From contig JAGYNU010000006.1 of the NCBI GenBank assembly GCA_018399975.1, forward strand, positions 1 to 33,412: 33,412 bases of DNA, given 5' to 3'. The notes beneath the pieces were generated by a model. It saw only the letters and a program-made list of their open reading frames with translations, ran no database searches and had not been told where the DNA came from. A program made the position numbers and the translations under genes. Source of the stretch: Candidatus Omnitrophota bacterium (lineage in GTDB: Bacteria > Omnitrophota > Gorgyraeia > M55B152). Each line of letters begins with the position of its first letter. Position 1 is the first letter of the stretch. Below are positions 7,381-33,374 of the stretch, piece after piece.

Positions 7381-7430
7381 GATGAGGCAGTTTCGGAGCA
7401 AAATGGGGCACGGTCCTACAGAGTGAAACT
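7381..7430 (+). promoter_or_regulatory. GC-rich intergenic element upstream of pilB, possible structured leader
   Basis: About 50 bp with roughly 50 % GC stand out inside a spacer that is otherwise very AT-rich. AGTTTC (7389-7394) and GAAACT (7425-7430) can close a stem around a 30-nt interior containing GGGGCACGGTCC. It ends 27 bp before the pilB start. I tested it by eye against the cyclic-di-GMP-I (GEMM) riboswitch core and it does not match. It could be a dispersed repeat or an unrecognised RNA element. Confidence 0.35.
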
Positions 7431-7457
7431 TAAAATAGAGATTAGGAGTATAAAACT

Positions 7458-9191: not shown

Positions 9192-9238
9192 GATTGTCGA
9201 TTTATATTTAATTTATATTTAATTAAACAGTTTATAAA

Positions 9239-10474: not shown

Positions 10475-10516
10475 ATTTATTTGATTATTAATCATTTTTA
10501 AAAAGGAGAATTGTTT

Positions 10517-10945: not shown

Positions 10946-11015
10946 ATATTTAGTTAACATTAATTGTATATATAGTTTTATATATAGGGATATAGATTTT
11001 ATCTGGAGGTAAATA

Positions 11016-11420
11016 ATGTTTTTAAATAAAAAGGGTTTCTCTTTATTGGAAGTCTTGGTAGTAATTGTAATAATATCGGTTTTAGCGGCGATGGCTACCC
11101 CTTTATATACAAAAGTAATAAAAAAAGGGCGTGCATCGGAAGCAGTTTCTAAAGTTGGAGATATAAGAGGTGCTGAGTTGCGATATTATGCAGAATATGG
11201 AAGTTTAGTTACTGGATCGAATCTTAGTGCTTTAGATATAGAAGATCCAAATAGTAGTGGAAAATTTGAATATTCTGTAAATGGTAGTGCTCCATCAGAT
11301 ATTGAGATAACTGCTGATGGCGTTGATTCCAGTGTTAAAGATGTATGTGTTTATTATGATGCAAGTATAGATGCTGATATACATGTTGATATAGATAATT
11401 CTGAAGGCAAATGTAATTAA
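11016..11420 (+). CDS. Type IV pilin / pseudopilin (pilin 2)
   Basis: A 134-residue prepilin with the short leader MFLNKKG, cleavage before FSLLE, and the hydrophobic helix VLVVIVIISVLAAMATPLY. The mature part parallels pilin 1 (RASEAVSKVGDIRGAELRYYAEYGSL versus RAAEAIQTIGDIKSSVLRYY), so the two are paralogues. Two Cys near the C-terminus (CVYYD... and final C-N) could form the terminal disulfide loop typical of pilins. Strong Shine-Dalgarno GGAGG (11005-11009). The 70-bp gap before it is AT-rich and holds no evident terminator. Confidence 0.9.
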   Translation: MFLNKKGFSLLEVLVVIVIISVLAAMATPLYTKVIKKGRASEAVSKVGDIRGAELRYYAEYGSLVTGSNLSALDIEDPNSSGKFEYSVNGSAPSDIEITADGVDSSVKDVCVYYDASIDADIHVDIDNSEGKCN

Positions 11421-11434
11421 ATGACTATTTAAAT

Positions 11435-11875
11435 ATGGTTTTTAAAAATAAAGCTTTTACTCTTTTGGAAATTTTGATAGTTGTTATTATTATGGCTATT
11501 ACTGGGGCTGTTGCTACGCTTTCTTATAGAAAAGCTATTAAAAAAGCAGGAGCTAAAGAAGCTGAAGCTCAAGTTGAATTGATATATGATGCAGAAGCTC
11601 AATATGCTTTAGATAATAATGATGAAATTAAAGAATTTGATTTTGATGATGAGGATTTATCTAATGATCTGGGTATTAATCCTAATGCAGGTCCATCTAA
11701 TTTTGAATATAAAGTAGAAGGTAGTAATATTGATGATATAAAGATAACAGGTCAAGCTAAAAGCAGTTCGAAATATGATGGTGTTGAAGTTAAATATGAT
11801 AATGGAGAAATTTGCACTAAGTTAAGTTCTACGGGAGATTGGCTTTGCAAGGATAGAGAATGGTCTTCTCAATAA
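11435..11875 (+). CDS. Type IV pilin-like protein (pilin 3) with Ala at the cleavage site
   Basis: A 146-residue prepilin-like protein: leader MVFKNKA, then FTLLEILIVVIIMAITGAVATLSY. The residue before the cleavage point is Ala7 instead of the usual Gly, while Glu5 of the mature chain is kept. Two Cys near the C-terminus (CTKLSSTGDWLC) could form a disulfide loop. It is paralogous to the two pilins before it but more diverged (KEAEAQVELIYDAEAQYALDNND). It lies 14 bp after pilin 2, with no good Shine-Dalgarno, which suggests coupling and lower expression. Confidence 0.87.
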   Translation: MVFKNKAFTLLEILIVVIIMAITGAVATLSYRKAIKKAGAKEAEAQVELIYDAEAQYALDNNDEIKEFDFDDEDLSNDLGINPNAGPSNFEYKVEGSNIDDIKITGQAKSSSKYDGVEVKYDNGEICTKLSSTGDWLCKDREWSSQ

Positions 11876-11896
11876 TTTAGTTAAGGATGTGATAGT

Positions 11897-12955
11897 ATGT
11901 TGAGCATAAATAATCTATTAAGGTATATTGTGGATAAAAATGCTACGGATTTGCATTTAACCGCAGGATTGCCTCCTCAAATAAGAATAAATGGAGAGCT
12001 TAAACTTACAGATTTTGAAAAGCTAACTTCGCCTGCAATAGAAGGTTTAGTTTTTGCAGTACTTTCAGAGAGACAGATTAATAAATTTCAGCAGGAAAAA
12101 GAACTTGATACTTCTTATGGTATACCCGGTGTGGGAAGATTTAGAATAAATCTTTATTATCAGAGAAGTTCGATAGCGGCTGCTTTCCGTTTCATTCCTT
12201 ATGAAATTCCTGATATGCAAAGTCTTGGGATTCCTGAGTCTTTAAAAGAATTGATTGAAAGGCCCAGCGGTTTATTTTTAGTAAGTGGGCCTACTGGAGC
12301 AGGTAAATCTACTACTTTAGCCAGCATGATAGATCATCTTAATAAGACTCAAAAAAAACATATTATTACAATTGAAGATCCAATCGAATATTTACATAGC
12401 CATAACAAAAGTACTATTAATCAAAGGGAGTTAGGTACAGACACATTGTCTTTTCAGGAAGCTTTACGTCATGTTTTCAGGCAGGACCCTGATGTAATAT
12501 TAGTAGGGGAAATGAGGGATTTAGAAACTATACATACTGCTCTTACTTTAGCAGAAACCGGGCATCTTATATTTGCTACTTTACATACAACGGATGCTGT
12601 GCATTCTATAAGTCGAATCGTTGATATATTTCCTCCTATTCAACAACAACAAATTCGGGTTCAATTATCAATGGTATTGATTGGAGTAATGGTTCAGCAG
12701 CTTATTCCCCGTAAGGATAATAAGGGAAGAGTTTTGGCTTTAGAAATAATGCAGGTTATTCCTTCAATACGCAATCTTATAAGGGAGAATAACTTGCCTC
12801 AAATTTATCCTGTTATACAGATGGGTGCAAAATATGGTATGATTGCTTTAAATCGTTATTTGGCAGGTTTATATAAAAAGAATATTATTACGATTGAAGA
12901 GGCGAAAAAGCACAGTAATAATATTTCAGAGTTGGTGTCATTTATCAGTGGATGA
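11897..12955 (+). CDS. pilT: Type IV pilus retraction ATPase PilT
   Basis: Hexameric ATPase that depolymerises the pilus and drives retraction or twitching. The 352 residues show the PilT N-terminal DLHLTAGLPPQIRINGEL motif and Walker A GPTGAGKST (131-139). DPDVILVGEMRD (Asp box/Walker B) and GHLIFATLHTTDAVHSISRIVD (His box and the PilT-typical continuation) follow. The tetracysteine of PilB is absent, as expected for PilT. A Shine-Dalgarno AAGGA lies at 11883-11887. Its presence inside the cluster argues for a retractable pilus and not a pure type II secretion system. Confidence 0.94.
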   Translation: MLSINNLLRYIVDKNATDLHLTAGLPPQIRINGELKLTDFEKLTSPAIEGLVFAVLSERQINKFQQEKELDTSYGIPGVGRFRINLYYQRSSIAAAFRFIPYEIPDMQSLGIPESLKELIERPSGLFLVSGPTGAGKSTTLASMIDHLNKTQKKHIITIEDPIEYLHSHNKSTINQRELGTDTLSFQEALRHVFRQDPDVILVGEMRDLETIHTALTLAETGHLIFATLHTTDAVHSISRIVDIFPPIQQQQIRVQLSMVLIGVMVQQLIPRKDNKGRVLALEIMQVIPSIRNLIRENNLPQIYPVIQMGAKYGMIALNRYLAGLYKKNIITIEEAKKHSNNISELVSFISG

Positions 12956-14177: not shown

Positions 14178-15455
14178 ATGGATAAAGTTACAATATTAGG
14201 AGCAGGCCTTGCTGGATTAAGTTGTGCTTATCATTTAAATCGAGAATATGAAATTTATGAAAAACAATCAAAAATTGGTGGTTTATGTAAGTCAAAAAAA
14301 ATAAACGGTTTTACATTTGACTATGATGGACACTTGTTGCATTTTAAAAAATCTTATGTTAAAAATTTACTTTATGGTTTATTAAATAATAAATTAGTTA
14401 AGCATAAGAGAGAATCTCTTATATATTCTCATAATACATATACTAAATATCCTTTCCAGGCAAAATTATATGGCTTACCAAATTCAGTAATTCAAGAATG
14501 TTTAGAAGGTTTAATAAAATCTAAGTTTGTCTCTGCTAAAAATAGCAATTTTAAAAATTGGGTATTAATGAATTTTGGCGAAGGTATTGCTGAACATTTT
14601 ATGATACCATATAATGAAAAATTTTGGACAGTACCATTAAATGAATTGACTGCAGATTGGGTGGATGGATTTATTCCTGTTCCTGACATAAAAGAAATTT
14701 TAAACGGTATATTACAGCCAGATGAAACAGAGTTTGGTTATAATGTGAATTTTTGGTATCCATCTCAAGGGGGTATCGAAAATATTTCTAAAGCTCTTGG
14801 ACAGAGATTAAATAATTTAAATATATCAAGCAAGGCAGAAATTGTAGATTTAGATAAAAGGCAAATTTATTTTAATAACAAAAAAAAAATTCATTATAAT
14901 AGACTTATATCTACTATTCCTCTTCCCAATTTAGTTGATATTATAAAACCTGTTGGTTCGAAAATTAAAGAAGCATCGCGTAATTTAAAATTTACTTCTG
15001 TTTATGTGTTAAATTTTGGTATTAAGAAAAAAATATTTCCAGGAGTTCATTGGATTTATTTTCCTTCTAAAGAATATCCATTTTACAGAATAGGATTTCC
15101 TCACAATTTTTCTTCTGAACTTGTCCCTTCAGGGTGTTCTTCTGTTTATGTGGAATTTTCTTATTCTAAAAATAGGTTGTTGGATAAAAACAAAATAGAA
15201 AATAAAACGATTGAAAAATTAAAGCAACTAAGCATAATTGATTCTGAAAAGGAAATAATAGAGATTTTACCAATGGATATAAAATATGGATATGTTTTAT
15301 ATGATAAGGATTACAGTAAGGCGAGAGATACTATAATAAGTTTTCTAAAAAATAATGGTATAAATACACTTGGCAGATATGGTAATTGGGAGTATAAGTC
15401 TATGGAGGATGTTATATTAGATGGTAAAAAAATGGCTGAAGAGTTGAATAACTGA
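14178..15455 (+). CDS. FAD-dependent oxidoreductase, UDP-galactopyranose-mutase-like
   Basis: Flavoprotein likely acting on a nucleotide sugar or related glycan precursor. The 425 residues start with a Rossmann dinucleotide motif (VTILGAGLAGLSCAYHL) and the acidic residue plus GGLCKS turn (YEIYEKQSKIGGLCKS). F-D-Y-D-G-H-L-L-H-F and the NEKFWTVPLNELTADW region follow, as in UDP-galactopyranose mutase/protoporphyrinogen-oxidase-like proteins. At the C-terminus, LGRYGNWEYKSMEDVILDGKKMAEEL matches the FAD-closing segment. It opens the glycan cluster. Strict identity as Glf is not certain because this superfamily includes many uncharacterised amine-oxidase-like members. Confidence 0.75.
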   Translation: MDKVTILGAGLAGLSCAYHLNREYEIYEKQSKIGGLCKSKKINGFTFDYDGHLLHFKKSYVKNLLYGLLNNKLVKHKRESLIYSHNTYTKYPFQAKLYGLPNSVIQECLEGLIKSKFVSAKNSNFKNWVLMNFGEGIAEHFMIPYNEKFWTVPLNELTADWVDGFIPVPDIKEILNGILQPDETEFGYNVNFWYPSQGGIENISKALGQRLNNLNISSKAEIVDLDKRQIYFNNKKKIHYNRLISTIPLPNLVDIIKPVGSKIKEASRNLKFTSVYVLNFGIKKKIFPGVHWIYFPSKEYPFYRIGFPHNFSSELVPSGCSSVYVEFSYSKNRLLDKNKIENKTIEKLKQLSIIDSEKEIIEILPMDIKYGYVLYDKDYSKARDTIISFLKNNGINTLGRYGNWEYKSMEDVILDGKKMAEELNN

Positions 15456-16590: not shown

Positions 16591-18048
16591 ATGAAATTTG
16601 CATTAGTATTTAATCCATTTAAATATAAACTTCATGAAGAAAATTTAAAAATAGTTCAGAAATATTTTGGATTATTCCCGCCTTTAAGTTTAACGTGGCC
16701 AGCTGCTATTGCGGAGCAGCATGGACATCAAGTAATATTAATCGATGCTAGAACCTTAGGTTTAACAAAGGAAGAAGTTTTGGATAGATTAATACAATTC
16801 CAACCTGATATAATGGGTTTTATGATGACTACCTATATGTATAGGGAAACATTAGAATGGATAGTGTATTTTAAAAAAAGGCTAAAAATTCCAGTTGTAA
16901 TAGGGGGATATAATCTAAGAGTATATCCTAAGGAATCTATTATGCCGGGTGAAATAGATTTTGGTGTGGTAAATTCTTCTCTTTATACCATACCAGAGTT
17001 ATTTAAACAATTAGAATCAGAAAGAAGGTTTGATGATGTTCCAGGTTTAGTATATAAAGAAAAAGGGGAAATTATACAGACTCCATCTCTTAAACCCGAG
17101 GAAAGATTTGAAGATTATCCTAATCCTGCTAGACATTTATTACCAAACGAACTATATGCAGAATTTCCTACTGAAAGAAGAAATTTTACTGCTATGGTTA
17201 CAAGTAAAGGTTGTCCGATGAGATGTAAATTTTGTGAAGCAGGTAGGACTTATTATAATCCTAGAAGTGCTAAAAAAGTAGTAGATGAGATTCAAGAATG
17301 TTATTATAAGTATAATATAAAAGAAATAGATATATTTGATTATGAATTTTTAATCGATAGAAAGAGAGCTTTAGATATATGTAAGAGATTGCAAGAAAAA
17401 AAGATGGATATTACATGGGCTTGTAGGAGTAGAATAGATTCTGTAGATGAAAAATTATTACAAGAGATGAAAAATGCGGGATGTTGCAGAATATATTATG
17501 GAGTGGAATCTGGTAATCAAAACACATTAGATGAACTTAATAAGGGGATAACTGTAAAGCAGATAAAGGATAATATAAGACTTACTAAAGAAATTGGTAT
17601 AAAAACATTAGGATTTATTTTAATTGGTGTTCCAGGAGAAACTAAACAGACAATTAAGAATAATTTAAGATTTGCTAAAAGTTTAGATTTAGATTATGTG
17701 CAGTTTTCGAAACTAACTGCGAAACCACTAACTGATATGTGGAAACAATTAGTAAAAGATACAAATTATGATTATTGGAAAGAATATATTTTAGGTAATA
17801 CAGTGGAAAGACCTTTACCGAGGCCTTGGACTAAATTAAGTAATAAAGAAATAGATGAATTAACAAAAAGATGTTATATAAGTTATTACTTCCGGCCTTT
17901 GTTTTTATTAAAAGCGGTTCTAGAGATTAAATCTTTTAAAGAGTTTAAACGTAAGTTTTTTGCTTTTTGGGATATGCTATTTAAACAGGAAAATGTGTCG
18001 AAAGTTGATGGGAAATTCGAGGCATTTAACGAAAATAAGTTTTTTTAA
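16591..18048 (+). CDS. B12-binding-domain radical SAM protein
   Basis: Predicted iron-sulfur SAM enzyme with an N-terminal cobalamin-binding-like domain (about residues 1-150: FPPLSLTWPAAIAEQHGHQVILIDARTLGL, VVIGGYNLRVYP). The radical SAM core carries Cys208, Cys212 and Cys215 (CPMRCKFC). The 485-residue length and the VESGNQNTLDELNKGI/GFILIGVPGET stretches fit the BchE/HpnJ-like class that often alters lipids, hopanoids or other hydrophobic substrates. The reaction is unknown (methylation, ring formation or rearrangement are all known in the family). It sits between a GT2 and a SPASM-type radical SAM gene, without a Shine-Dalgarno, so a glycolipid substrate is plausible. Confidence 0.85.
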   Translation: MKFALVFNPFKYKLHEENLKIVQKYFGLFPPLSLTWPAAIAEQHGHQVILIDARTLGLTKEEVLDRLIQFQPDIMGFMMTTYMYRETLEWIVYFKKRLKIPVVIGGYNLRVYPKESIMPGEIDFGVVNSSLYTIPELFKQLESERRFDDVPGLVYKEKGEIIQTPSLKPEERFEDYPNPARHLLPNELYAEFPTERRNFTAMVTSKGCPMRCKFCEAGRTYYNPRSAKKVVDEIQECYYKYNIKEIDIFDYEFLIDRKRALDICKRLQEKKMDITWACRSRIDSVDEKLLQEMKNAGCCRIYYGVESGNQNTLDELNKGITVKQIKDNIRLTKEIGIKTLGFILIGVPGETKQTIKNNLRFAKSLDLDYVQFSKLTAKPLTDMWKQLVKDTNYDYWKEYILGNTVERPLPRPWTKLSNKEIDELTKRCYISYYFRPLFLLKAVLEIKSFKEFKRKFFAFWDMLFKQENVSKVDGKFEAFNENKFF

Positions 18049-18189: not shown

Positions 18190-19191
18190 ATGATAGATTC
18201 AAAATTTAAGTTTTTTTATTTATTTAAAATTGCTTTTAATTTACTTAAAGCCAAGTTTTTCAATAAAAGCATTCCTTTGTTTATTGGTTGGGGAATAACA
18301 GATAAATGTAATTATCATTGCCGTTATTGCTATATACCTGATATTAAACGGGAGAAAGAATTATCTACAAGCGAAGTTTTTACGATAATAGATGGATTAG
18401 CTAAATTGGGAACAGTACGGATAAATCTTACTGGTGGTGAGCCTTTACTTAGAAAAGATATTGGTGGAATAGTAAAATATATAAGGAATAAGGGAATTCA
18501 TGTGGGAATGAATTCAAATGGTTCTTTGGTTCCGCAAAAAATTAATGTGTTGAAGAATATAGATATTCTTATGTTAAGTTTTGATGGGCCTAAAAAGATT
18601 CAGGATAGACAAAGACAGCCTGGTTCTTATGAAGATATTGTAAATGCATTAAAATTAGCAGGAAAATATAATATAAAAGTAATACTTTATACAGTATTAA
18701 CGAAGGATAATATAAAATATGTAAATTATATATTAGATTTTGCCAAGCAATTTAAGACATATGTAATGTTTTCTCCAGTTAACCAATTTCCTTTTCAAGA
18801 AAAGCAAAGAAATAATTCTTTTTATGTTCCTATAGATGTTTATAAAAAAACAATTAAAAAATTAATCCATTATAAAAAACAAGGTAATTCCTGTATTGTT
18901 AATTCTTTAACTGGTTTAAGACATCTTTATGATTGGCCGCATCATAGAAAAATAAATTGTGCTGCGGCTAAAATATACTATCGTATTCAACCAGATGGAG
19001 ATGTATATGGCTGTGGAAACTTTGTATCTAAATCTTCTAAAGTAAATTGTCTAAGATTAGGTGTAGAAAAAGCATTGAGAGGAATTAATATTAATCCTTG
19101 TGAAAATTGTTGGTGTGCCAACAGAGTAGAAATGAATTTTGTTTGGTCTTTGTATCCCGAAGCAGTTTTTAATGCTATTAAGTTATTATAA
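18190..19191 (+). CDS. Radical SAM/SPASM-domain protein
   Basis: A 333-residue radical SAM enzyme with Cys40, Cys44 and Cys47 (CNYHCRYC) and the LTGGEPLLRKDI motif. The C-terminal Cys-rich region (INCAAAKIYYRIQPDGDVYGCGNF, then CENCWC) fits a SPASM/twitch domain binding auxiliary iron-sulfur clusters. Such enzymes usually modify peptides or proteins, or mature sugars or cofactors. No precursor-peptide gene is evident beside it. The N-terminal 25 residues are hydrophobic and basic, possibly membrane-associated. It is tightly coupled to the next gene (2-bp gap). The 141-bp spacer upstream is AT-rich and shows nothing clear. Confidence 0.85.
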   Translation: MIDSKFKFFYLFKIAFNLLKAKFFNKSIPLFIGWGITDKCNYHCRYCYIPDIKREKELSTSEVFTIIDGLAKLGTVRINLTGGEPLLRKDIGGIVKYIRNKGIHVGMNSNGSLVPQKINVLKNIDILMLSFDGPKKIQDRQRQPGSYEDIVNALKLAGKYNIKVILYTVLTKDNIKYVNYILDFAKQFKTYVMFSPVNQFPFQEKQRNNSFYVPIDVYKKTIKKLIHYKKQGNSCIVNSLTGLRHLYDWPHHRKINCAAAKIYYRIQPDGDVYGCGNFVSKSSKVNCLRLGVEKALRGININPCENCWCANRVEMNFVWSLYPEAVFNAIKLL

Positions 19192-20158: not shown

Positions 20159-21376
20159 ATGGAAATAAAGATTATAAGAAAAATGGATTATTGGTTAGGT
20201 ATACCAATCTGTTTTTTACTTACTATTATTTATAAATTACAAAAAATTTTTATTAATAAAATATTTATCGATATTGAACCAAAGAGAATAATGTTTTTAG
20301 AGCTTTCTGAAATGGGAAGTGCGATATTAGCTTATCCTGCAATGGAAAAGGTTTTAAAAACATATCCGGGAGCAAAGCTTTATTTTTGGATTTTTAAAAG
20401 GAATCAAGATAGTGTGCATATATTGGATTTAATACCTAAAGATAATGTAATTATTATGAGAGATAGGAATATTTTTGTTTTATTAATGGATACTATAAGA
20501 AATATAATAACAATTAGAAAGCAGAAGATTGATGTAATTTTCGATTTAGGTCTTTTTTCGCGTTTTACTGCAATATTGAGTTATTTATCTGGAGCTAAAT
20601 ATAGGACAGGATATTATAGATTTTCTTTGGAAGGTTTATATAAAGGTAATCTTTATACACATAATGTTAAATATAATCCATATTTGCATATTTCTTTAAA
20701 TTTTTTGTTTCTTGTGGAGTCTTTAAAATTTCCTGTTAGACAAATTCCATTACCTAAAAAAGTATTAGATGGTTCTAAAATTTTCTTACCTAAAATTAAG
20801 ACGGATAAAAAAGGAGAAAAAAATATATTTAATAAGCTAACATCAATTAGTAGTGAATTTAGCAAAAAGAATAAGATAGTAGTTGTTAATCCAGGAACAA
20901 GTAAACTTTTACCTTTACGGCAATGGCCAATAGATAAGTATATAAAACTTATAAGGTTGCTTTTGAATAACTCATATATTTTTGTAGTTTTAATAGGAGA
21001 TGAATATGATTTTAGTACTATAGAAGATATGATTTTTAAAATAAACAGTAAAAAATGTATAAATCTAAGTGGAAGAACAAATTTAAATGATTTAGTTGAT
21101 TTATTTAATATTGCGAATCTTTTTATTACCCATGACAGTGGGCCTGCTCATGTAGCTGCTTTATCCAAGGTAAATATGATAGTGTTATTTGGCCCGGAAA
21201 CGCCTAAACTCTATGCTCCATTAACTGAAAATGTTAGAATATTGTATAAGAAGTTTTCTTGCAGTCCTTGTGTTTCAGCATATAATTACCGTAATTCTAT
21301 GTGTGATGATAATAAATGTATGCAGGCTATAAAAGTGAAAGAAGTTTATGATATCGCCATGGAATATTTGTGCTAA
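20159..21376 (+). CDS. Family 9 (heptosyltransferase-like) glycosyltransferase
   Basis: GT-B fold enzyme of the ADP-heptose:LPS heptosyltransferase family. The 405 residues include a hydrophobic N-terminal segment (about 12-32) that may anchor it to the membrane. RIMFLELSEMGSAILAYPAM marks the N-terminal domain start. The GT9 signatures are VVVNPGTSKLLPLRQWPIDKY and FITHDSGPAHVAALSKVNMIVLFGPETP. Near the C-terminus, CSPCVSAYNYRNSMCDDNKC holds four Cys, a common GT9 pattern. This supports an LPS- or lipid-linked glycan pathway. Donor sugar unknown. Confidence 0.88.
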   Translation: MEIKIIRKMDYWLGIPICFLLTIIYKLQKIFINKIFIDIEPKRIMFLELSEMGSAILAYPAMEKVLKTYPGAKLYFWIFKRNQDSVHILDLIPKDNVIIMRDRNIFVLLMDTIRNIITIRKQKIDVIFDLGLFSRFTAILSYLSGAKYRTGYYRFSLEGLYKGNLYTHNVKYNPYLHISLNFLFLVESLKFPVRQIPLPKKVLDGSKIFLPKIKTDKKGEKNIFNKLTSISSEFSKKNKIVVVNPGTSKLLPLRQWPIDKYIKLIRLLLNNSYIFVVLIGDEYDFSTIEDMIFKINSKKCINLSGRTNLNDLVDLFNIANLFITHDSGPAHVAALSKVNMIVLFGPETPKLYAPLTENVRILYKKFSCSPCVSAYNYRNSMCDDNKCMQAIKVKEVYDIAMEYLC

Positions 21377-21538: not shown

Positions 21539-24500
21539 ATGAAAAAACCTACAGTTTCAATAGTTATTGTGAATTATAATGGCGAGTATTTTTTAGAACC
21601 TTGTCTTAAATCTGTATTTAACTTAAATTATCCTAAGACTAAATTAGAAATTATAGTGGTGGATAACGGTTCTACGGATGGTTCTATCGATTTAATAAAA
21701 AAACAATTTCCCAAGGTTAAGATAATAGAAAACGATGTAAATAATTATTGCAAAGCTAATAACTTAGGAATTAAAGAATCAAAAAGCGATTATATTGCAT
21801 TTTTGAATAATGATACTGAAGTGGATAAGAATTGGTTAATTGAATTGATTAAAATAATTGAGGAAGATTCAAAAATAGGCGCAGTAGGAAGTAAAATATT
21901 ATATCCAAATGGTCAGATATCAAATGTAGGGCATTTTGGGCTTCCTAATTTCTATTGGGGTGAGAAAGGTGCATTTGAAAATGCCGATCAATTTGCAAAT
22001 ATTGAAGAAAGAAATAGTTTATGTGGAGTAGCTGTGCTTTATCCTAAAAGAATTTTTGGGAAAGTAGGTTGTTTTGATGAAGATTTTATTATTTATATGG
22101 AAGATGTTGATATGTCATACAGAGTAAAACAGGGAGGGTTTAAACTCGTATATGTTCCTGATGCTATTATTAAACATTATTTTCATGGTAGTGGGGGGCA
22201 TGAGTTATCACGTTATTTTATTGAAAGAAATAGATTATTGTATTTAGCCAAGCATCATCCGCAGTTTCTTGTTTCATCTCTTTTAGGGAATGGCTACTTT
22301 ACTGTAAATAATAATATAGATTATTTAGGAAAGATTTATCAAATTATCGCTGATGTCATATTGAAACTTTTCAAACACCACTCTATCCAAAAAACTCAAA
22401 ATATTTTAAATAGACTTTTTGAAGAATTGGGAAAAATTTCAAATTATGAAAACGAAATATTAAAACAGAAAGTTAAAGAATTTAAATCTGAAGTATTAAA
22501 GAAAACAGAGGGTATTTCTGTTTTACAAGGTGATTTAAAGAAACTTAATAATAATATAATACAGAAAGATGAAGAGGTGCTGAGCATAAAAGACGAATTA
22601 AATAATAAAAATGATTTAATAAAGAAGGTAAAAGAAGACAATGCTGATAAGGATTTACAACTTCAGAAAAAACATTGTGAAATTAATAATTTGAAAGATA
22701 AATTACAAAGGATTAGGAAGAAAACAGAAGAATATGAGCAAAATATAACAAAGTTGAATGAAATAGTTCATGCAAAAAATAATGATTTATCGAATTTATG
22801 GCATGAGTTGAATTGCATAAAGAATTCAGAAGGTTATAAATTTATACTTCGACCTTTATGGAATCTTATTTTTACAACCAGAAAGTTTTTAAAGACTTTT
22901 TTTTTGATTCTTATTCTATTTTTACTAATTCCAATATTTTTATTCTTACCCGTATTTTTTTTTATAGAAGAAAAGGCCTGGGCTCTTTTTTCTTTGAAAT
23001 TTAAAAAAAACATTCCTGAAAGAAAAATAATTCCTTATAAAACACTAAAGTTAAGTGTCGTCATACCTAATTACGGAAATAAAAGAATTATTAACAGATG
23101 TCTAAAATCTTTGTTCAAATTAGAAGAGTTTGCTAAATCAGAAGATAATGAAGTAATTGTTGTAGACGATTGTAGTGCAAATGGAAGTGTCGATTTTATA
23201 AAAATTAACTTTCCTAAAGTGAGAGTAATAGAAAATAAAAAAAATATGGGGTTTGGATTCTCTTGTAATAGGGGCATTAAAGCAGCTAGAAACGAGCTTA
23301 TATTGTTACTCAATAATGATGTTTTTGTAGATAAAGGTTTTTTAAAGCCGTTAATCCGCCATTTTAAAGACGAAAGTGTTTTTTCAGTAACTCCTAAACT
23401 ATATGACTGGGATAAAAAAACATTTAAATGGGGTATGAATGTAGGAGGTTTCAAACAGGGCTATCTTAGGTTTTTCAATGAAAAAGATACAGCTTACGGA
23501 AGGAAAATTTATCATACGTCACCTACTCTTTACTCTGTAGGTGCGGCTATGTTGTTCAGGAAAAGAGATTTTTTGTGGTTAGGTGGATTTGATAGTATAT
23601 ACAAACCGTATTCCTGGGAAGACATAGACCTTTCATATAGAGCTTGGAAAAGAGGTCTCAAAGTTTTATATGAACCGAAAAGTATAATTTATCACAAAGG
23701 AAAGGCTACTATAGGTAAGTATAAGCGCGAGTTGGAAATTAAAAACGAAATAACATTTACATGTAAAAATTTTACCGATAGATCTATAATTTACAAATTT
23801 TTAAAGTATCTACCTCAAGTAACTTATAACGGGAAGACAAAATTTTTGAGGGGGTTTTTATGGGCTTTAAGATTATTGCCGATTACTTTACTGCATCGTT
23901 TTAAAGAAAGATGTTATATTGTTAGTACTGACAGAAAAATTTTGGACGGAATTAATAGTATATATAGTAGGTTTAAAAGTGAGCAAAAAAAATGTATTAA
24001 TGGAAACCATAAAAAGAATATACTTATAGTTTCCCCTGTAGTTCCTTATCCAGTTAATAGAGGGGGACAACTTAAATTATATTATTCTTTAAAGTTTCTA
24101 TCTAAAAAGTTTAATATATTGTGGGTATCTTTTTCAGAAGAAGTAAAATCTGTGGCAACAAATGAATTTTTAGGAAAAAATTGTTTGGATTACATTTTAA
24201 TTCCCCAAGATAATTTAAATAATGAAGATAATTTTAATTCTAATTTTCCTGGTATTGTAAATAAATGTTATTCTTTAAATATGAAAGAATCAATTCGGTA
24301 TATGATTGAAAAATATAATGTTGATTTAGTTCAAATAGAATTTTCTTGGTTAGCTTATTATATTAGTTTTATGAGAAGGATACCAGCTGTTTTGGTAGAA
24401 CATGATCCAACTCCTGCTTTTCCACTTAAATCTTATATGCCTTTTAATAACCAAAAGGAAAGAGCAGATGGGGCAAAAAAATGGAGGGATTTTTTAGGAA

Positions 24501-26137
24501 ATTATTATCCACAATTCGATAAAGTTGTAACATTTACCGAAGAAGATAAGAAATTGGTATCCTCTATTTCTCCAAAAATCAACATCGAGGTCATTCCTAT
24601 AGGTTTAGATTTATCAGATTATTCTTTTTCGTTAAAAAAAAATAAAAAATATGATGTTATCTTTGTAGGTCATTTTTTGCACTATCCTAATATAGATGGT
24701 ATAAAGTATTTTTGCGATGAAATTTTTCCAAGAATTACAAAACGAATTAAGGATGTAACATTATATATTTTGGGTTCTTATATGCCTGACGAGGTAGTAA
24801 AATTGGGAAAGCAAAGTAACATAGAAATTATCGGTGAAGTTAGAAATATTCAAGAATATTTTTCAAAAGCTAAAGTTTTAGTTGTTCCAATTAGATTAGG
24901 TAAAGGGTTAAAGGTAAAAATTCTTGAGGCGATGGCTTCAGGATGTGCTGTGGTAACCACAAAAGAGATTGCTATAGATTATTATGATTTTCATATAGGT
25001 ACTACGTGTCTTTTAACAAATGGCTCACCTGAAGAGTTTGCTGAATCCGTTATAAGGTTAATCCAAAATGATGATTTTCGTAATAATATTGTTTCTAATG
25101 CAAGAAAGCTGGTAGATAAGGTTTATAATATAAAGGCAGTTAGTCAAAAAACTGAACAGTTATATAAGAAATTAATAAAGTATTCTTCAAATGGGTTTAA
25201 TTCTCCAATAGTTAGTGTTTCTCCTTGTTTTGATGATAATGAAGAGCAAGTATCTTCTATATGGGCAGGTTGGGACATTATAATGAGATGTAATTATCGC
25301 TGTGCATATTGTTTTAATAATGGGCATTGGGATAAGTTAAAATATTTCCTAAGAGGTTCTGATGAATGGTTAGAATTTTGGAAAAGGGTTTATTTTAGAC
25401 ATGGTCAAGTTCATATTAATAATGTTGCAGGAGGAGAGCCGTTTCTTTATCCTAATTTTACAAATCTTATCAAAGGGGTATCCAGATTTCATACAATAGG
25501 TGTCAATACCAATCTTAGTTGTATTCCTGAAAAATTTATAAAAGAAGTTGACCCAAAGAGAGTAAAATTATTCCCTTCATTCCATCCAGATTTTACTTCA
25601 GTATCAAAATTTATAGATAGGCTTATTTATCTAAAGGAATATGGATGGAGGAATTGGACCAGTATAGTTGCATATCCTGTTTTTTTTGACAGATTAGGTG
25701 AATATAAAGAACAATTTAAAAAAAATGGATTGGAAGTTTTTATTCAACCGTTTATTGGAATTTATGAAGGGGAAAAATATCCCAAAAATTATACGAAACA
25801 ACAGAAAGGATTTTTATTGCAACAAGCAAGAGTTCCTGAATATATTGACTATCAATTAAATTGCATATCTTTTCGTGACAAACTTTGCAATGCTGGTAAA
25901 AATTATTTCCGTGTAAATGCTAAAGGGGAGATTTATCGTTGTGCTTTTGGTCCTAAATTGGGCAATATTCAGGATGAAGATATTTCTCTTTTCGATAAGC
26001 CACAACCGTGTCCTAAAGAGTTTTGTGTGTGTCCGAATGAAATGGTGTTTTTAGAATCGCAAAAAAAAGTTAGAATAAAAATACATAAAGATTTTTTGAA
26101 GGATATGGATTTATCTTGTGATTATGTATCAAAATAA
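21539..26137 (+). CDS. Giant multidomain protein: GT2 - coiled coil - TM - GT2 - GT4 - radical SAM
   Basis: A 1532-residue chain with at least four enzyme domains. Residues 4-250 form a GT2 (DNGSTDGS 42-49, NND 90-92, EDVD 188-191). Residues about 285-420 are a Lys/Glu/Asn-rich coiled coil. Residues about 450-480 form a hydrophobic membrane hairpin or helix. Residues 504-790 are a second GT2 (DDCSANGS from 543, NND 592-594, WEDIDLSYRAWKRG). Residues about 825-1215 are a GT4/GT-B domain (VSPVVPYPVNRGGQ, LRLGKGLKVKILEAMASGCAVVTT). Residues about 1240-1532 are a radical SAM domain with Cys1251, Cys1255 and Cys1258 and a Cys-rich SPASM-like tail. No frameshift or stop interrupts it. Domains are individually common in surface-glycan clusters, but I know no named protein joining them all. 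There is no Shine-Dalgarno. The next GT2 gene overlaps its end. Confidence 0.9.
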   Translation: MKKPTVSIVIVNYNGEYFLEPCLKSVFNLNYPKTKLEIIVVDNGSTDGSIDLIKKQFPKVKIIENDVNNYCKANNLGIKESKSDYIAFLNNDTEVDKNWLIELIKIIEEDSKIGAVGSKILYPNGQISNVGHFGLPNFYWGEKGAFENADQFANIEERNSLCGVAVLYPKRIFGKVGCFDEDFIIYMEDVDMSYRVKQGGFKLVYVPDAIIKHYFHGSGGHELSRYFIERNRLLYLAKHHPQFLVSSLLGNGYFTVNNNIDYLGKIYQIIADVILKLFKHHSIQKTQNILNRLFEELGKISNYENEILKQKVKEFKSEVLKKTEGISVLQGDLKKLNNNIIQKDEEVLSIKDELNNKNDLIKKVKEDNADKDLQLQKKHCEINNLKDKLQRIRKKTEEYEQNITKLNEIVHAKNNDLSNLWHELNCIKNSEGYKFILRPLWNLIFTTRKFLKTFFLILILFLLIPIFLFLPVFFFIEEKAWALFSLKFKKNIPERKIIPYKTLKLSVVIPNYGNKRIINRCLKSLFKLEEFAKSEDNEVIVVDDCSANGSVDFIKINFPKVRVIENKKNMGFGFSCNRGIKAARNELILLLNNDVFVDKGFLKPLIRHFKDESVFSVTPKLYDWDKKTFKWGMNVGGFKQGYLRFFNEKDTAYGRKIYHTSPTLYSVGAAMLFRKRDFLWLGGFDSIYKPYSWEDIDLSYRAWKRGLKVLYEPKSIIYHKGKATIGKYKRELEIKNEITFTCKNFTDRSIIYKFLKYLPQVTYNGKTKFLRGFLWALRLLPITLLHRFKERCYIVSTDRKILDGINSIYSRFKSEQKKCINGNHKKNILIVSPVVPYPVNRGGQLKLYYSLKFLSKKFNILWVSFSEEVKSVATNEFLGKNCLDYILIPQDNLNNEDNFNSNFPGIVNKCYSLNMKESIRYMIEKYNVDLVQIEFSWLAYYISFMRRIPAVLVEHDPTPAFPLKSYMPFNNQKERADGAKKWRDFLGNYYPQFDKVVTFTEEDKKLVSSISPKINIEVIPIGLDLSDYSFSLKKNKKYDVIFVGHFLHYPNIDGIKYFCDEIFPRITKRIKDVTLYILGSYMPDEVVKLGKQSNIEIIGEVRNIQEYFSKAKVLVVPIRLGKGLKVKILEAMASGCAVVTTKEIAIDYYDFHIGTTCLLTNGSPEEFAESVIRLIQNDDFRNNIVSNARKLVDKVYNIKAVSQKTEQLYKKLIKYSSNGFNSPIVSVSPCFDDNEEQVSSIWAGWDIIMRCNYRCAYCFNNGHWDKLKYFLRGSDEWLEFWKRVYFRHGQVHINNVAGGEPFLYPNFTNLIKGVSRFHTIGVNTNLSCIPEKFIKEVDPKRVKLFPSFHPDFTSVSKFIDRLIYLKEYGWRNWTSIVAYPVFFDRLGEYKEQFKKNGLEVFIQPFIGIYEGEKYPKNYTKQQKGFLLQQARVPEYIDYQLNCISFRDKLCNAGKNYFRVNAKGEIYRCAFGPKLGNIQDEDISLFDKPQPCPKEFCVCPNEMVFLESQKKVRIKIHKDFLKDMDLSCDYVSK

Positions 26138-27053
26138 CGATAAATTTAAGATATCAGTTATCATACCTACAAAGAATGGAATGCCTTATATAAGGGATTG
26201 TTTGAGTTCAATATTCAATCAGCAATTTACATATAAATTTGAGGTGATTTGTGTGGATTCTGGTTCGGTTGACGGAACATTGGAAGTTATTAAGAGATAT
26301 CCTGTAAGGTTGTTTACCATCTTACCTAAAGATTTTAATCATGGGTTAACACGTAACTTTGCTATTGATAAAGCAAATTCAGAATTTGTTGTTATTTTAA
26401 CTCAAGATGCAGTTCCATATGGTAAGTATTGGTTAACTAAAATGGTTGATAATTTTAGTGATGAGTTAGTAGCAGGAGTTTATTGTAGGCAAATTCCGAG
26501 AAAAGAAGATGATATAATTTTAAAGAGAGAGATGGAAAGTTTTTTAACTGCCCGTAGAAACAAAATAATATCTTATATTAAAAGTGAAAAATGGTACGAT
26601 TCTCTTAATCCTATAGAACGTTTTATAACATGTTATTTTGACAATGTTTGTTCATGTATTCGAAAAAGTATTTGGAGTAAATTCCATTTTCCCGAGACAA
26701 ATTTTGCTGAAGATTTAATGTGGTCAAAAACAATATTAGAACATGGTTATAAAATTGTTTATGAACCAAATGCTAAAGTCATACATTCTCATAATAAATC
26801 TTTTAAATATAAATACCTAAGATATTATATGCATTATGAAACACTACATAAATTATTTGGTATCCAACAAATAGATAGCTTTAATATAGTTATTAGAGAA
26901 ACATTGAAGCAAAGCATTGGCAATATTATATTTTTATTTAAAAATATAAAAATATTATTTTTATCACATTTTTTTTATCTTTTATTAAAATGCATTTTAG
27001 ATCCACTCATTATAAATTGTGCTCAATATAAAGCAATTAAAAATAATATTTAA
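26124..27053 (+). CDS. Family 2 glycosyltransferase, rhamnosyltransferase-like
   Basis: A 309-residue GT2 with ISVIIPTKNGMPYIRDCL and VDSGSVDGT. FNHGLTRNFAIDKA followed by VILTQDAVPYGKYWL is the pattern of rhamnosyl- and related transferases. These carry Q-D-A in place of the DxD metal motif. FAEDLMWSKTILEHGYKIVYEP supplies the catalytic-base region. I take the ATG at 26124. A GTG at 26118 is possible. The start overlaps the last 14 bp of the giant gene, so the two are translationally coupled and probably act on the same glycan. Confidence 0.85.
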   Translation: MYQNNDKFKISVIIPTKNGMPYIRDCLSSIFNQQFTYKFEVICVDSGSVDGTLEVIKRYPVRLFTILPKDFNHGLTRNFAIDKANSEFVVILTQDAVPYGKYWLTKMVDNFSDELVAGVYCRQIPRKEDDIILKREMESFLTARRNKIISYIKSEKWYDSLNPIERFITCYFDNVCSCIRKSIWSKFHFPETNFAEDLMWSKTILEHGYKIVYEPNAKVIHSHNKSFKYKYLRYYMHYETLHKLFGIQQIDSFNIVIRETLKQSIGNIIFLFKNIKILFLSHFFYLLLKCILDPLIINCAQYKAIKNNI

Positions 27054-28301: not shown

Positions 28302-29678
28302 ATGAAAGTATTACAGGTAATTCATTCGTTTCCACCATATTTCTCATCTGGTTCTGAATTATATACATATAATATAACCAGGGAACTTAGTAAAAGTATG
28401 AATGTTTATATTTTTCATCGGATTCCTAAAGGAGAAAGGAAAGAATATGAGATATTATTAGATCGGATAAAAGGGTTAAATATATTTAAGGTAAATTATA
28501 ATTGGTTGGAGTATTTTGTCTTGAATGATTTTTCTGAAAAAAATAATAAAATAGATGAAATATTTAGAAGTATATTAGATAAAATTAAACCCGATGTAGT
28601 TCACTTTCAGCATTTAATTCAATTATCTATTTCAATGATTAATGAGGCAAAAAAGAGAAATATACCTATAGTGTTTACTTTACATGATTATTGGCTTATT
28701 TGTCCCCAAATACAGTTATTTTATTTAGAACATAAGATTTGCAGATGTTATAGTAGAGAAGGTTGTAGAGGTTGTATATATTGGAATATGAATTACAAGT
28801 CAAATATGATGAAATTTGTAAGAAAATTAAAAAGAGTTATCCCGGGATTAAAATATCCTGTAAATGGCCGTTACCGTTTACTAAGACAAATATTGGATTA
28901 TATAATACAAAGCTTTATGGATAAACCAACTTATCAGAAAATTATAAGCCGAAGAAATGAAAATATTTCAAAAGTATTTTCTTCAGTTGATTTATTTATT
29001 TCCCCTTCTGTTTTTTTGAAAAAGAAAATAACCGGTTCAAAATTGTTTTCAAATAAAATTATTCATTCCAAATATGGTATCAGTTTACCTTTGTCATATA
29101 AAAAAAATAAAAAAACTAATAAAAATATTAATATCGGATTTAGAGGGCAGTTGATTTTTCACAAAGGAGTGCATGTTTTGATTAGGGCTTTTAAGCGTAT
29201 TAAAGACCCAAATGTAGTTCTTAAAATATATGGAGGAGTTCCTAACTATGGTGATTTTCATGGTGATTATTCATATGAAGAATTATTAAAAAATTTGGCA
29301 GATGGTTCAAATGTACGATTTTTAGGACCATATTTTTATGATAATATAAATAAAATTTTGGATGACATAGATTTATTAGTGGTGCCATCTATTTGGTATG
29401 AAAACTGCCCTATTACTATATTGGAATCGTTTGCTAACCGAACACCGGTTATAGCTTCAAATATAGGAGGAATTCCTGAGTTAGTGAAACACCGAGTAAA
29501 TGGTTTATTGTTTAAACCAGGAGACAGTGTAGATTTGTATAATAAGATAAATTATGTATGTGAAAATCCAGAAGTTATTGGTGAATTCAGTAATAATATT
29601 TCCGGAGTTAAAACTATCGAGGAAAATGCCGAAGAATTAAAGAAGATTTATAAAAATTTAATTGAGGGGAAATTTTAA
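28302..29678 (+). CDS. Family 4 glycosyltransferase
   Basis: GT-B retaining glycosyltransferase. The 458 residues carry VLQVIHSFPPYFSSGSELYTYNITREL (N-terminal domain with the acceptor-side glycine loop), HFQHLIQLSISM and FTLHDYWLICP. A four-Cys patch follows (Cys147, Cys149, Cys155, Cys158), which is seen in a subset of GT4 enzymes. The C-terminal donor domain has IGFRGQLIFHKGVHVLIRAF and VVPSIWYENCPITILESFANRTPVIAS, the E-x7-E motif region. It is longer than average because of an insertion at about 175-225. Donor sugar unknown. Confidence 0.88.
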   Translation: MKVLQVIHSFPPYFSSGSELYTYNITRELSKSMNVYIFHRIPKGERKEYEILLDRIKGLNIFKVNYNWLEYFVLNDFSEKNNKIDEIFRSILDKIKPDVVHFQHLIQLSISMINEAKKRNIPIVFTLHDYWLICPQIQLFYLEHKICRCYSREGCRGCIYWNMNYKSNMMKFVRKLKRVIPGLKYPVNGRYRLLRQILDYIIQSFMDKPTYQKIISRRNENISKVFSSVDLFISPSVFLKKKITGSKLFSNKIIHSKYGISLPLSYKKNKKTNKNINIGFRGQLIFHKGVHVLIRAFKRIKDPNVVLKIYGGVPNYGDFHGDYSYEELLKNLADGSNVRFLGPYFYDNINKILDDIDLLVVPSIWYENCPITILESFANRTPVIASNIGGIPELVKHRVNGLLFKPGDSVDLYNKINYVCENPEVIGEFSNNISGVKTIEENAEELKKIYKNLIEGKF

Positions 29679-29762: not shown

Positions 29763-30692
29763 ATGGGATTTTTTAAAAATGTTAATAAGGTTAAACTGGG
29801 TAAAGTTTTTAATTTATGTGTTATATTTATTTCTATTGGTTATGTTTATTTAAGTATTATCTCTTACAAATTCCGATTTAAAGATATAGATATAGAGATA
29901 GATTATTTGTGTATTTTCATAGCGAGCATTTTATTATTTCTTGTGTATATGATTTATGTGGGATTGTGGAGGGGAATAATGAGTTTTTTAAAATGTCCTA
30001 TATCTTTTAAAAAATTAGCTTATGTATATTTTTCTACTTTATTATATAAATATATTCCAGGCAAAATTTGGGTTCCTATATGGAGAATTGTTTATTTAAC
30101 CAATGGTAAAAATAAAAAAAATCTTGCGCTGAGTTTATTTTTAGATTTAATTTTTAAAGTTTTTGCTGGGTTTATTATAGGTATGATTTGTTTTTTTATT
30201 TTGTTGAAGCAATTCCAAGTTAAATTAAACCAGTTCAACGTTTGTTTCATTATTGTGTTATTGTTTATATCTGTTTTAGTTATTGTATTTATTTATAAGA
30301 AGAATGTTTTTTTCTGTATTTTCTTAAAAAGTCTATCAAATAAGAAAGCTTATGTTTTAAGAATTTTCGTTATATTAACATTGATATATTGTTTTACGAT
30401 ATGTTTGGAAGGATTATCTTTTTTCTTAATTATAAACGCAGTAACCGACAGTCAAGAATTATTATATTCTATTGGTACTAAAGCTATAGCAAAAAGTATT
30501 TTTTCTGCAGTTCCAGTTAGTCATGTAGGTACTACAGAAGCAACTTATGTTTTTTTTCTTAAGAAGATTATTAAATTTCCATACTTTTTCATAATCCCTT
30601 TGTTATATAGGGTATGGAAAATATTTTGTGAATTAACTTTGTTTATATTTTTTAAACTTTATAAATTTAGTTTTCTAAAAAAATATGAGTAA
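29763..30692 (+). CDS. Second COG0392-like polytopic membrane protein
   Basis: A 309-residue membrane protein with about eight hydrophobic stretches. KLAYVYFSTLLYKYIPGKIWVPIWRIVYL (about 80-108) resembles the substrate loop of LPG-synthase-TM/AglD-like proteins. Near residue 250, FSAVPVSHVGTTEATYVFFL corresponds to the glycine-rich G-x-x-E-A signature, which is weaker than in the copy at 19194-20135. It overlaps the kinase gene downstream by 8 bp, so the two are translationally coupled and likely functionally paired. Assignment rests on topology and motif placement. Confidence 0.65.
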   Translation: MGFFKNVNKVKLGKVFNLCVIFISIGYVYLSIISYKFRFKDIDIEIDYLCIFIASILLFLVYMIYVGLWRGIMSFLKCPISFKKLAYVYFSTLLYKYIPGKIWVPIWRIVYLTNGKNKKNLALSLFLDLIFKVFAGFIIGMICFFILLKQFQVKLNQFNVCFIIVLLFISVLVIVFIYKKNVFFCIFLKSLSNKKAYVLRIFVILTLIYCFTICLEGLSFFLIINAVTDSQELLYSIGTKAIAKSIFSAVPVSHVGTTEATYVFFLKKIIKFPYFFIIPLLYRVWKIFCELTLFIFFKLYKFSFLKKYE

Positions 30693-32037
30693 GTTTAAAA
30701 AAAACTATGTAGTATATCTAATAATATATCTAACTTTATTTATTTCTATTGTTATACCCAAAACTTTTTCTAAAAAGATACCATTATCTAACAGAAGGAA
30801 ATCCTCGGAATGTTATCGAGAACTTATACAAATTTATAATGAATATATAGAATTGGAGAATAATATATTTAAAAAATTAGTTTTTTGTCTTTCGGATTTT
30901 CAGCTTCAAAAAGGTACCAGTTTAAAGTTAATTTTAGAAGATCAATTTGGTAAGAAGTGGATATTTAAACCGGGGGAAAAAGCTAAAAGTGAGATAGTAG
31001 TTTATCATTTATTTACTCTCTTTGGTATTGAAGCACCAGAGATACATTTTATCGAATTACCTGTAAATGGTAAAGAGGTTTTCGGAAGTATCCAAAAATT
31101 TATTGACAATCAGGGTAATTTATATGACATTTCTCCAGTTGAACTTACCCGAGAAACATTAGTATATTTATTAAGAAGTCATGTATTTACTTGGCTTCTT
31201 GCAAATTACGATGCACATGCAAAAAATTTTCTAATAACTTCTCTAAAAAGAGGGAAAGTTCATAAAATTGTGCGTATAGATAATGACGGAGCATTTGGGA
31301 TATTAGGAGATGATGAATTGGAGATTAATTTTTCGCCTCCTTGGTATGGAAATTTAAATCGTAGTTACTATAATAAGTTATGGAAATCCTTTATGTTAAA
31401 TAATATTGAGCTCGATTTGAATGGAAATTATGAATTTGTCAAATTTGTTGCATATTTTCCAGATGAGTTTTTCAAAAAGTTGATATTGCATATATTTAGT
31501 AAAAATAAGATTGTAGATTTGGCGATTCAAAGGAAACGTAATTTACCTTTTGACTATAAAAAATTTTACAATAAACTTATCAAATTCAAAAAAGCAAGTT
31601 TATATTTTAACCAAAGTATTAGCAGTAAAAAGTGTTGTAATATAGGTAGTGTAATTTGTGGAAAACTTAAAGCAAAAACTGAAAAACTAAGAAATATTAT
31701 AAAGTTAAATGAGGTTGAAGAAATTGAGAAACAATTAAATATTGCAGCAAAAGCATCTATTGACGGATTCAAAATATTGAAAAAAGTTTATTACTTTTTC
31801 TGGGATGAATCATATTGGAAAGAAACCCATCAAAAGGATAGAGATAAAACTTTAGTCAAAATTTGTGATGAAGCTTTAGAACGATTAAAGAGTTTGAAAT
31901 TTACTGCGAATAATAAGTATGAAGAGTTTGCTATTAACTGCTATATTCAAGAGGTTAAACAAATAAAATTAGAAAATAAAGCCTCTTACGGGTTTAAGCA
32001 GATAAACAAAGTTGTTAAAGATATTACGTTATATTAA
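30685..32037 (+). CDS. Membrane-anchored HipA/FAM20-fold kinase-like protein
   Basis: A 450-residue protein with a basic N-terminus and a membrane segment (about residues 8-26). A kinase-like domain then follows, probably outside the cytoplasm. The elements visible are WIFKPG with Lys95 (ATP phosphate contact) and SEIVVYHLF with Glu103 (helix C partner). NYDAHAKN has Asp176 as catalytic base and Asn181 as metal ligand. RIDNDGAFG has Asp199 at the DFG-equivalent position. The N-x-D-x-H-x-x-N arrangement is that of HipA/PI3-4-kinase-like and FAM20 secretory kinases. It is not HipA toxin-like in context: no HipB is present and it is joined by overlap to a glycan-cluster membrane protein. FAM20B phosphorylates a sugar, so a glycan kinase role is a reasonable guess. 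Confidence 0.75.
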   Translation: MSKFKKNYVVYLIIYLTLFISIVIPKTFSKKIPLSNRRKSSECYRELIQIYNEYIELENNIFKKLVFCLSDFQLQKGTSLKLILEDQFGKKWIFKPGEKAKSEIVVYHLFTLFGIEAPEIHFIELPVNGKEVFGSIQKFIDNQGNLYDISPVELTRETLVYLLRSHVFTWLLANYDAHAKNFLITSLKRGKVHKIVRIDNDGAFGILGDDELEINFSPPWYGNLNRSYYNKLWKSFMLNNIELDLNGNYEFVKFVAYFPDEFFKKLILHIFSKNKIVDLAIQRKRNLPFDYKKFYNKLIKFKKASLYFNQSISSKKCCNIGSVICGKLKAKTEKLRNIIKLNEVEEIEKQLNIAAKASIDGFKILKKVYYFFWDESYWKETHQKDRDKTLVKICDEALERLKSLKFTANNKYEEFAINCYIQEVKQIKLENKASYGFKQINKVVKDITLY

Positions 32038-32147: not shown

Positions 32148-33374
32148 ATGCAAAAAATGTTAGGAAAGATAACAAAAAAAATTTATATATATTTTATTAT
32201 TTTATTTTTACTTTGGATTTCTTTTTTCTGTGAGTATGTACAGTCAAAATATCAATATTTTGTTCTAGGAATATTTTTTGTTTTATTTTTTTATTTATTC
32301 TTTCAAAGAAATATTTTATCTAAATGGAACAATATTGTTAATATTTCTTTTTTAATTTTTATAACATCTTTCTATATTTCTTATTTTACGGCAGTTAACA
32401 GAAATAATTCTTATAATGCACATTACATTGTTGTAACGTTACTTCTTTTGTATTTTATTTTCCAGTCAATAAATTTCAAGGATATAAAAACTAAATTATC
32501 ATCTCTGATTTCAATATTAAGTATTATAGTTTTTGCTATTGGTATTTTAGAGTTAATATTTAAGAAGAATTTTTTATACGAAGCCTTTTTTTATAATCCA
32601 TTTTATAAAGGTTACATTAAATGTGGAGAAGTTATGTCTACGCAGTATCATCCGGCAGTTTTTGCTACTTTCATGTTGGCATGTTTACCATTTTCGCTTT
32701 ATTGTACAGAAAATAGCAAATGTAGATTGCAATTATTGGGAATATTAGGAAGTTTTGCAAGTATAGTAGGTATAATATTATCTACGATACATTTTGCCTT
32801 TATAGGTATGATAGTTTTGTTAAGTATTTATTTATTTCAAAAAAATAGAAGAGTTTTTAAAATATTTCTAATTATATTTATACTGTTTTTAGCTATTTCC
32901 ATTTTGTTATCTAATTTTGATATGCTTTTTTATAAATTTTCTATCCTAAGCAAACTACATCTTCGTTCTTTAATATATAGATTTCAACGAGTTATTATTA
33001 GTTACAAAATTTGGAGTGATAATCTTTTAACCGGAGTTGGTTTTAATAATTTCAGATATTTGTTCGACCAGTATTCTCAAGGAATTATTTCGGATTTCAC
33101 ACATAAGATACCAGATAATATGTATTTGTCATTATTAGCAGAAACAGGGATACTAGGATTATTTTCATTTATTATATTTTTAATTATTTTAATAGTTAAT
33201 GGAGCAAAGAAGGTAAAGGGTATTCAGTATCAGGATGACAAAAATTTTCTTAATCTTATGTTATTAGGGTTAATAGCTCTTCTTATAAACATGAATGGAT
33301 ACGATTTCTTGTATTGGCATATGCCGCTTTATTTTTTTTCTATTTATATTGGTATAATTAGAAGTTATTTATGA
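32148..33374 (+). CDS. O-antigen ligase / Wzy-polymerase-like membrane protein
   Basis: A 408-residue polytopic membrane protein with about ten hydrophobic segments. Its large periplasmic loop carries LLTGVGFNNFRYLFDQ and HKIPDNMYLSLLAETGILGLFSF, the pattern of the O-antigen ligase (WaaL)/Wzy/PglL-like family (PF04932). These enzymes polymerise a lipid-linked glycan or transfer it to lipid A, or to proteins such as pilins. The ATG at 32148 is taken; Met4 at 32157 is an alternative. No Shine-Dalgarno precedes it directly, though AAAGGA lies at 32099-32104 in front of a tiny overlapping reading frame. Confidence 0.85.
   Translation: MQKMLGKITKKIYIYFIILFLLWISFFCEYVQSKYQYFVLGIFFVLFFYLFFQRNILSKWNNIVNISFLIFITSFYISYFTAVNRNNSYNAHYIVVTLLLLYFIFQSINFKDIKTKLSSLISILSIIVFAIGILELIFKKNFLYEAFFYNPFYKGYIKCGEVMSTQYHPAVFATFMLACLPFSLYCTENSKCRLQLLGILGSFASIVGIILSTIHFAFIGMIVLLSIYLFQKNRRVFKIFLIIFILFLAISILLSNFDMLFYKFSILSKLHLRSLIYRFQRVIISYKIWSDNLLTGVGFNNFRYLFDQYSQGIISDFTHKIPDNMYLSLLAETGILGLFSFIIFLIILIVNGAKKVKGIQYQDDKNFLNLMLLGLIALLINMNGYDFLYWHMPLYFFSIYIGIIRSYL

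Follow-up and report, generated by a model that had tools for sequence, protein, structure and literature searches.

The window described here, namely the whole stretch of 33,412 nucleotides from a Candidatus Omnitrophota bacterium (contig JAGYNU010000006.1 of assembly GCA_018399975.1), carries a polysaccharide gene cluster in which a single gene on the forward strand, at 21539..26137, encodes a protein of 1532 amino acids. The upstream neighbor on the same strand (20159..21376) encodes a GT9, heptosyltransferase-like protein by Pfam. Further upstream lie forward-strand genes for an FAD-dependent oxidoreductase (14178..15455), a B12-binding radical SAM protein (16591..18048) and a separate radical SAM protein of 333 aa recognized by Pfam (18190..19191). 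Homologues of the oxidoreductase, 44-48% identical, recur in the clusters of the relatives discussed below, where B12-radical SAM proteins also flank the enzyme. Downstream, again on the forward strand, lie a GT2 gene (26118..27053; Pfam) whose frame shares 20 bases with the 3' end of the 1532-aa gene, a GT4 glycosyltransferase of the same cluster (28302..29678; Pfam) and a Wzy_C protein (32148..33374; PF04932) that is a possible O-antigen ligase. Two flippase-like LPG_synthase_TM proteins are also encoded in the window. Within the polysaccharide cluster, the frame at 30685-32037 gave a weak, short match to HipA_C (4.6e-8, residues 155-184) and possibly encodes a kinase; type IV pilus/type II secretion genes (PilM, PilO, secretin, two ATPases and T2SSF) occupy 3255-12955, upstream of the glycan cluster.

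The gene starts with ATG at 21539 and its stop codon ends at 26137, giving 1532 codons with internal stops absent; the antisense strand of this interval is crowded with stops. A sequence-only reading of the window had described a single uninterrupted frame running from GT2 through a coiled coil, a hydrophobic segment, a second GT2 and a GT4 to a radical SAM enzyme. This description held, in that the open reading frame is intact and conserved in relatives, the domain order was recovered with Pfam and with our own profiles, and the motifs and cysteines that it had named (including Cys1251/1255/1258) were found where it had placed them. The GT2 motifs lie at 42 (DNGST), 89 (LNND) and 187 (MEDVD) in the first module and at 543 (DDCSA), 591 (LNND) and 692 (SWEDID) in the second. 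The domain search that it had proposed supported both GT2s, the GT4 and the radical SAM domain with Pfam and NCBIfam, and all four scored above the curated Pfam cut-offs.

The N-terminal GT2 module (residues 1-262; 21539..22324) is proposed as a chain-terminating glycosyltransferase. PF00535 matched the 1532-aa protein in two stretches (2.7e-53), and both Pfam and NCBIfam assign the N-terminal module to GT2 and not to the Kdo transferases. The coiled coil that follows (about residues 285-427; 22391..22819), a candidate molecular ruler, shows a heptad periodicity of 3.5 residues (p = 0.0005 versus 2000 shuffles) and is variable among relatives, ranging from 166 to 667 aa when measured between the GT2 and a post-coil motif. 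The longest of these coils, 667 aa, belongs to L066 (9995-16326), where the enzyme is split within the GT4 into two overlapping frames by either an assembly frameshift or a real split. A conserved NSEG(Y/F)xFxLRPxW motif, seen in the alignment, precedes a hydrophobic membrane segment (residues 444-485; 22868..22993) identified from hydropathy and alignment. An AlphaFold model of 1103 residues drew the membrane region as one long helix; given its low overall pTM of 0.48, neither the domain arrangement nor the membrane topology was taken from this model. Both GT2 modules require cytoplasmic donors, so the hydrophobic stretch would be expected to fold as a hairpin or to run within the plane of the membrane. 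A single membrane span would place the two halves of the protein on opposite sides of the membrane, which counts against the WbbB-like reading given below.

The second GT2 module (residues 498-805; 23030..23953; Pfam and alignment) is the best-conserved part of the family in the alignment. It is followed by a GT4 module of the GT-B type (residues 826-1216; 24014..25186), matched by PF13692 (1.3e-26) and PF00534 and also TIGR03087-like. By analogy with described systems, we infer a polymerase role for these two modules.

The C-terminal radical SAM module (residues 1241-1509; 25259..26065) was recognized by several means. PF04055 scored 37.2 bits against a cut-off of 29.5; the CxxxCxxC motif reads CNYRCAYC at residues 1251-1258 and, together with GGEP at 1298-1301, is invariant across ten aligned family members. 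By sequence, a profile built from 40 homologues picked out radical SAM enzymes of solved structure (SkfB, 4e-11; MoaA, 2e-10). When the domain was modelled with AlphaFold (pLDDT 87, pTM 0.84), BlsE was the top Foldseek match (3.7e-9), with SuiB, ChlB, EpeE and anSME also retrieved. The expectation of a radical SAM fold in the last ~290 residues was therefore borne out by Pfam, NCBIfam, AlphaFold and Foldseek, and on these matches and the predicted fold the domain is a genuine one. The closest NCBIfam radical SAM model, NF038073 (STM4011 radical SAM), aligned to residues 1248-1499 with 84.4 bits (7.7e-24). Given the curated cut-off of 200 bits, membership of the STM4011 family was rejected; this family is unnamed in any of the open-licence papers searched.

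The cysteine-rich tail of the module (25886..26032) can be written as C1450-x12-G1463-x4-C1468 ... C1491-x4-C1496-x-C1498. Among the 40 homologues, C1450 and C1468 never vary, and conservation is at least 90% for both C1491 and C1496. This second set of cysteines, among them the CX12GX4C half of the SPASM/twitch motif, suggests an auxiliary cluster like those of SPASM/twitch enzymes. Membership of the SPASM domain as such was rejected, given that Pfam returned no PF13186 match in the 1532-aa protein and that, of the seven-cysteine motif, only CX12GX4C and CX4CXC are present.

Of 285 sampled genomes from the phylum, 43 matched at E <= 1e-40. A scan of genome contigs with a single sequence gave no matches; with an alignment it succeeded, and the best named matches were Candidatus Omnitrophota. 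The search for proteins of the same domain order, also proposed beforehand, revealed GT2-GT4-radical SAM in one chain in 15 distinct genomes, window included. The whole chain, with the N-terminal GT2 and uncut by a contig end, is present in the window and in three relatives, where it measures 2079 aa (G221; L039/L055), 2166 aa (G129; L046/L060) and 1662 aa (DNHS01000056; L054). In a further genome, G063, the N-terminal part and the remainder lie at the ends of two contigs that overlap by 88 identical bp within the coiled coil, where the number of coil repeats is uncertain. The window protein and that of G063, which cluster in the GT2-GT4 tree (support 99/97, with a long-branch warning), carry an STM4011-like radical SAM module, and the other relatives end in one or two radical SAM/SPASM modules. 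On this comparison of sequences, the radical SAM module is exchangeable within the family. The window protein belongs to a modular Omnitrophota family and is neither chimeric nor unique. The N-terminal GT2-coiled coil was also seen on other C-termini, either a radical SAM part that lacks the polymerase GTs or other parts whose ends are hydrophobic (L050, L052, L051, L019 and L026).

In 20 other genomes, no more than about 300 bp separate the end of wzt from the start of the N-terminal GT2-coiled-coil gene; where scanned, the Wzt has two Wzt_C domains and wzm lies upstream of wzt. The genome of the window, searched by family and by protein, encodes one Wzt_C-bearing protein, 46% identical to its G063 orthologue, together with wzm. 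In this assembly the pair is not on the contig of the gene but on contig C74, where positions 12-5531 (L161; G000:C74) hold wzm, wzt with two Wzt_C domains, an N-acetyl sugar amidotransferase-like gene and a carbamoyltransferase-like gene, the last two named from reading of the sequence and the carbamoyltransferase-like gene also from a relative. This segment is possibly a missing part of the window's cluster. The location of wzm-wzt on another contig counts against ABC export for the window gene, as do the Wzy_C and two LPG_synthase_TM proteins, which fit other export routes.

The reading that we prefer, with a probability of roughly 0.55, is that the protein is a WbbB-like single-chain assembly enzyme for an ABC-exported, lipid-linked surface polysaccharide, with an added radical SAM tailoring module. 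In described systems, a coiled-coil ruler carries the terminator at its far end, and in both WbbB and O7 ORF6 one chain also includes the polymerase GTs, as its C-terminal part (PMC11231755); the cap stops elongation and is recognized by the carbohydrate-binding domain of Wzt (PMC9445017). Because relatives have the N-terminal GT2 and coiled coil immediately behind wzt, the WbbB/WbdD type of polymerase-terminator with ruler offers the closest described logic, and the first GT2 is therefore more likely to cap the chain than to add the first of several extending sugars. In the WbbB-like reading, the second GT2 and the GT4, at the membrane end, would extend the chain, and the coiled coil would act as a ruler that holds the N-terminal GT2 away from the membrane, a role for which coil lengths of 166-667 aa would be allowed. 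When the chain has reached a sufficient length, the N-terminal GT2 would cap it with a sugar, the carbohydrate-binding domains of Wzt would recognize this cap, and export by Wzm/Wzt would then start. The C-terminal radical SAM module, on the polymerase side, may modify the growing glycan or the lipid-linked acceptor. The domains, the intact frame, their conservation, the transporter linkage in relatives and the exchangeable radical SAM modules were observed, whereas the way in which the GTs share the work, the coil as a ruler and the substrate of the radical SAM module are inferred; the proposed capping, ruler and polymerase roles draw on the wzt adjacency in relatives, the described cap and ruler systems and the variation in coil length. 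The sequence-only reading had pictured a membrane-bound assembly line that extends a glycan by several sugars and then performs a radical modification. A membrane-associated multi-GT enzyme joined to a genuine radical SAM domain survives from that picture; extension by the first GT2 is the less likely assignment, and the radical step, by a module attached on the polymerase (membrane) side, may or may not come last. A further point that counts against the WbbB-like reading with glycan tailoring is that the open-licence papers searched yielded no radical SAM enzyme with a polymeric glycan as its substrate.

It is possible, though rather unlikely, that all three GTs build a repeat unit or an adaptor, in which case the coil would only dimerize and scaffold and the protein would add no cap. 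The proven terminators are Kdo transferases or methyltransferase-kinases (PMC11231755), and the N-terminal module, as an ordinary GT2 with intact motifs, is neither, which counts against its capping role. By contrast, the GT2-coiled-coil unit still lies directly after wzt in other genomes when the polymerase part is absent, as would be expected of a transporter-matched terminator, and the coil varies widely in length.

A radical SAM module that acts on a peptide or protein (RiPP-like or a glycoprotein), attached to the GTs so that a glycopeptide results, would account for the peptide modifiers SuiB, ChlB, EpeE and anSME among the Foldseek neighbors and for the arrays of radical SAM/SPASM genes in relatives; we consider it improbable. 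The top Foldseek match, BlsE, acts on a nucleoside sugar, and the identified neighboring genes are mostly sugar, radical SAM or export genes. In addition, the array genes of G221 abut, overlap or are at most about 70 bases apart, which leaves no space for a precursor-peptide gene, so a RiPP precursor is not supported there. Such arrays were observed near the enzyme of relatives in L142, L143 (G205:C217), L039/L040 (G221:C65) and L149 (G079:C1); the 34-kb contig of G205 holds about 20 or more radical SAM domains, several of which are fused to TPR repeats or to one another.

Assembly of the polymer by a Wzx/Wzy-type route, with the window protein building only the lipid-linked repeat unit, is suggested by the Wzy_C protein (32148) and the LPG_synthase_TM flippase-like proteins nearby, and is also doubtful. 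The wzm-wzt genes lie directly upstream in relatives, the genome of the window encodes an orthologous pair, and Wzy_C (PF04932) is also a hallmark of O-antigen ligases, enzymes required for ABC-dependent export routes.

Separate genes at the borders of the fused domains were found in other phyla. Behind a GT4 gene in Elusimicrobia (mostly Endomicrobia) lies a separate radical SAM gene of the type seen in the window protein (L076, L078, L080 and L116), and on two Nitrospirota contigs (L068 and L069) a GT2-GT4 gene is followed by a separate SPASM-type gene. Unfused radical SAM genes of the same families adjoin GT genes. The sequence-only reading had noted that radical SAM/SPASM enzymes are usually free-standing; within the family, radical SAM modules often occur as separate genes in the same clusters. 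The simplest reading of these gene orders is that fusion may have joined genes that were already side by side. An assembly or frameshift artefact joining separate genes, for which one might cite the fragmented assembly (109 contigs), the relatives' contigs that often end within the coiled coil and the separate genes of Nitrospirota and Elusimicrobia, is rejected as extremely improbable because the same junctions recur in many independently assembled genomes and because G063, with its 88-bp overlap, repeats the exact GT4-radical SAM junction of the window protein.

The known sugar substrates of radical SAM enzymes, such as those of BtrN, DesII and BlsE, are small molecules, and the present family would bring this enzyme class into polysaccharide assembly. 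Capping, length measurement and export control are known from a few proteobacterial models, and the family would extend their logic to an uncultured phylum of very small cells. A more tentative proposal, which we hold to be somewhat short of probable, is that the polymerase performs radical SAM chemistry on the growing lipid-linked polymer, per repeat or at the cap, and so sets the glycan structure or the export signal, with fused modules and radical SAM arrays diversifying the polymer. If the radical SAM module does act on the polymer, glycans would be tailored in a way not seen before, and because of the fusion the isolated C-terminal half lends itself to a direct test.

Among known systems, WbbB of Klebsiella pneumoniae O12 likewise joins an N-terminal GT, a coiled-coil ruler and two C-terminal polymerase GTs in one chain, and its polysaccharide is ABC-exported (PMC11231755), as proposed here; Pfam and our own profiles recovered the same order in the window protein. 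The window protein differs from WbbB in having a GT2 in place of a Kdo transferase at the N terminus, and in adding a hydrophobic segment between coil and polymerase and a C-terminal radical SAM module. ORF6 of K. pneumoniae O7 shares the N-terminal terminator, central coiled coil and two C-terminal GT modules (PMC11231755), but its terminator is a methyltransferase-kinase and it lacks radical SAM. WbdD/WbdA of Escherichia coli O9a has a coiled-coil ruler between terminator and membrane-bound polymerase, but consists of two proteins, uses a methyl-phosphate cap and is likewise without radical SAM. The SPASM/twitch enzymes BlsE, SuiB, anSME, EpeE and BtrN share the radical SAM fold (Foldseek) and the auxiliary-cluster cysteines; they are not fused to GTs, and the window protein has no Pfam SPASM match. 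The open-licence papers searched held nothing relevant on radical SAM joined to GTs or to O-antigen assembly, and the main Omnitrophota paper mentions neither glycosyltransferases nor radical SAM. The earlier claim of an architecture without described counterpart therefore stands for the papers searched; as a member of the modular Omnitrophota family, the protein is not an isolated oddity. In summary, the assembly logic was already known, and the novelty lies in the fusion to a radical SAM module and in the exchange of that module among family members.
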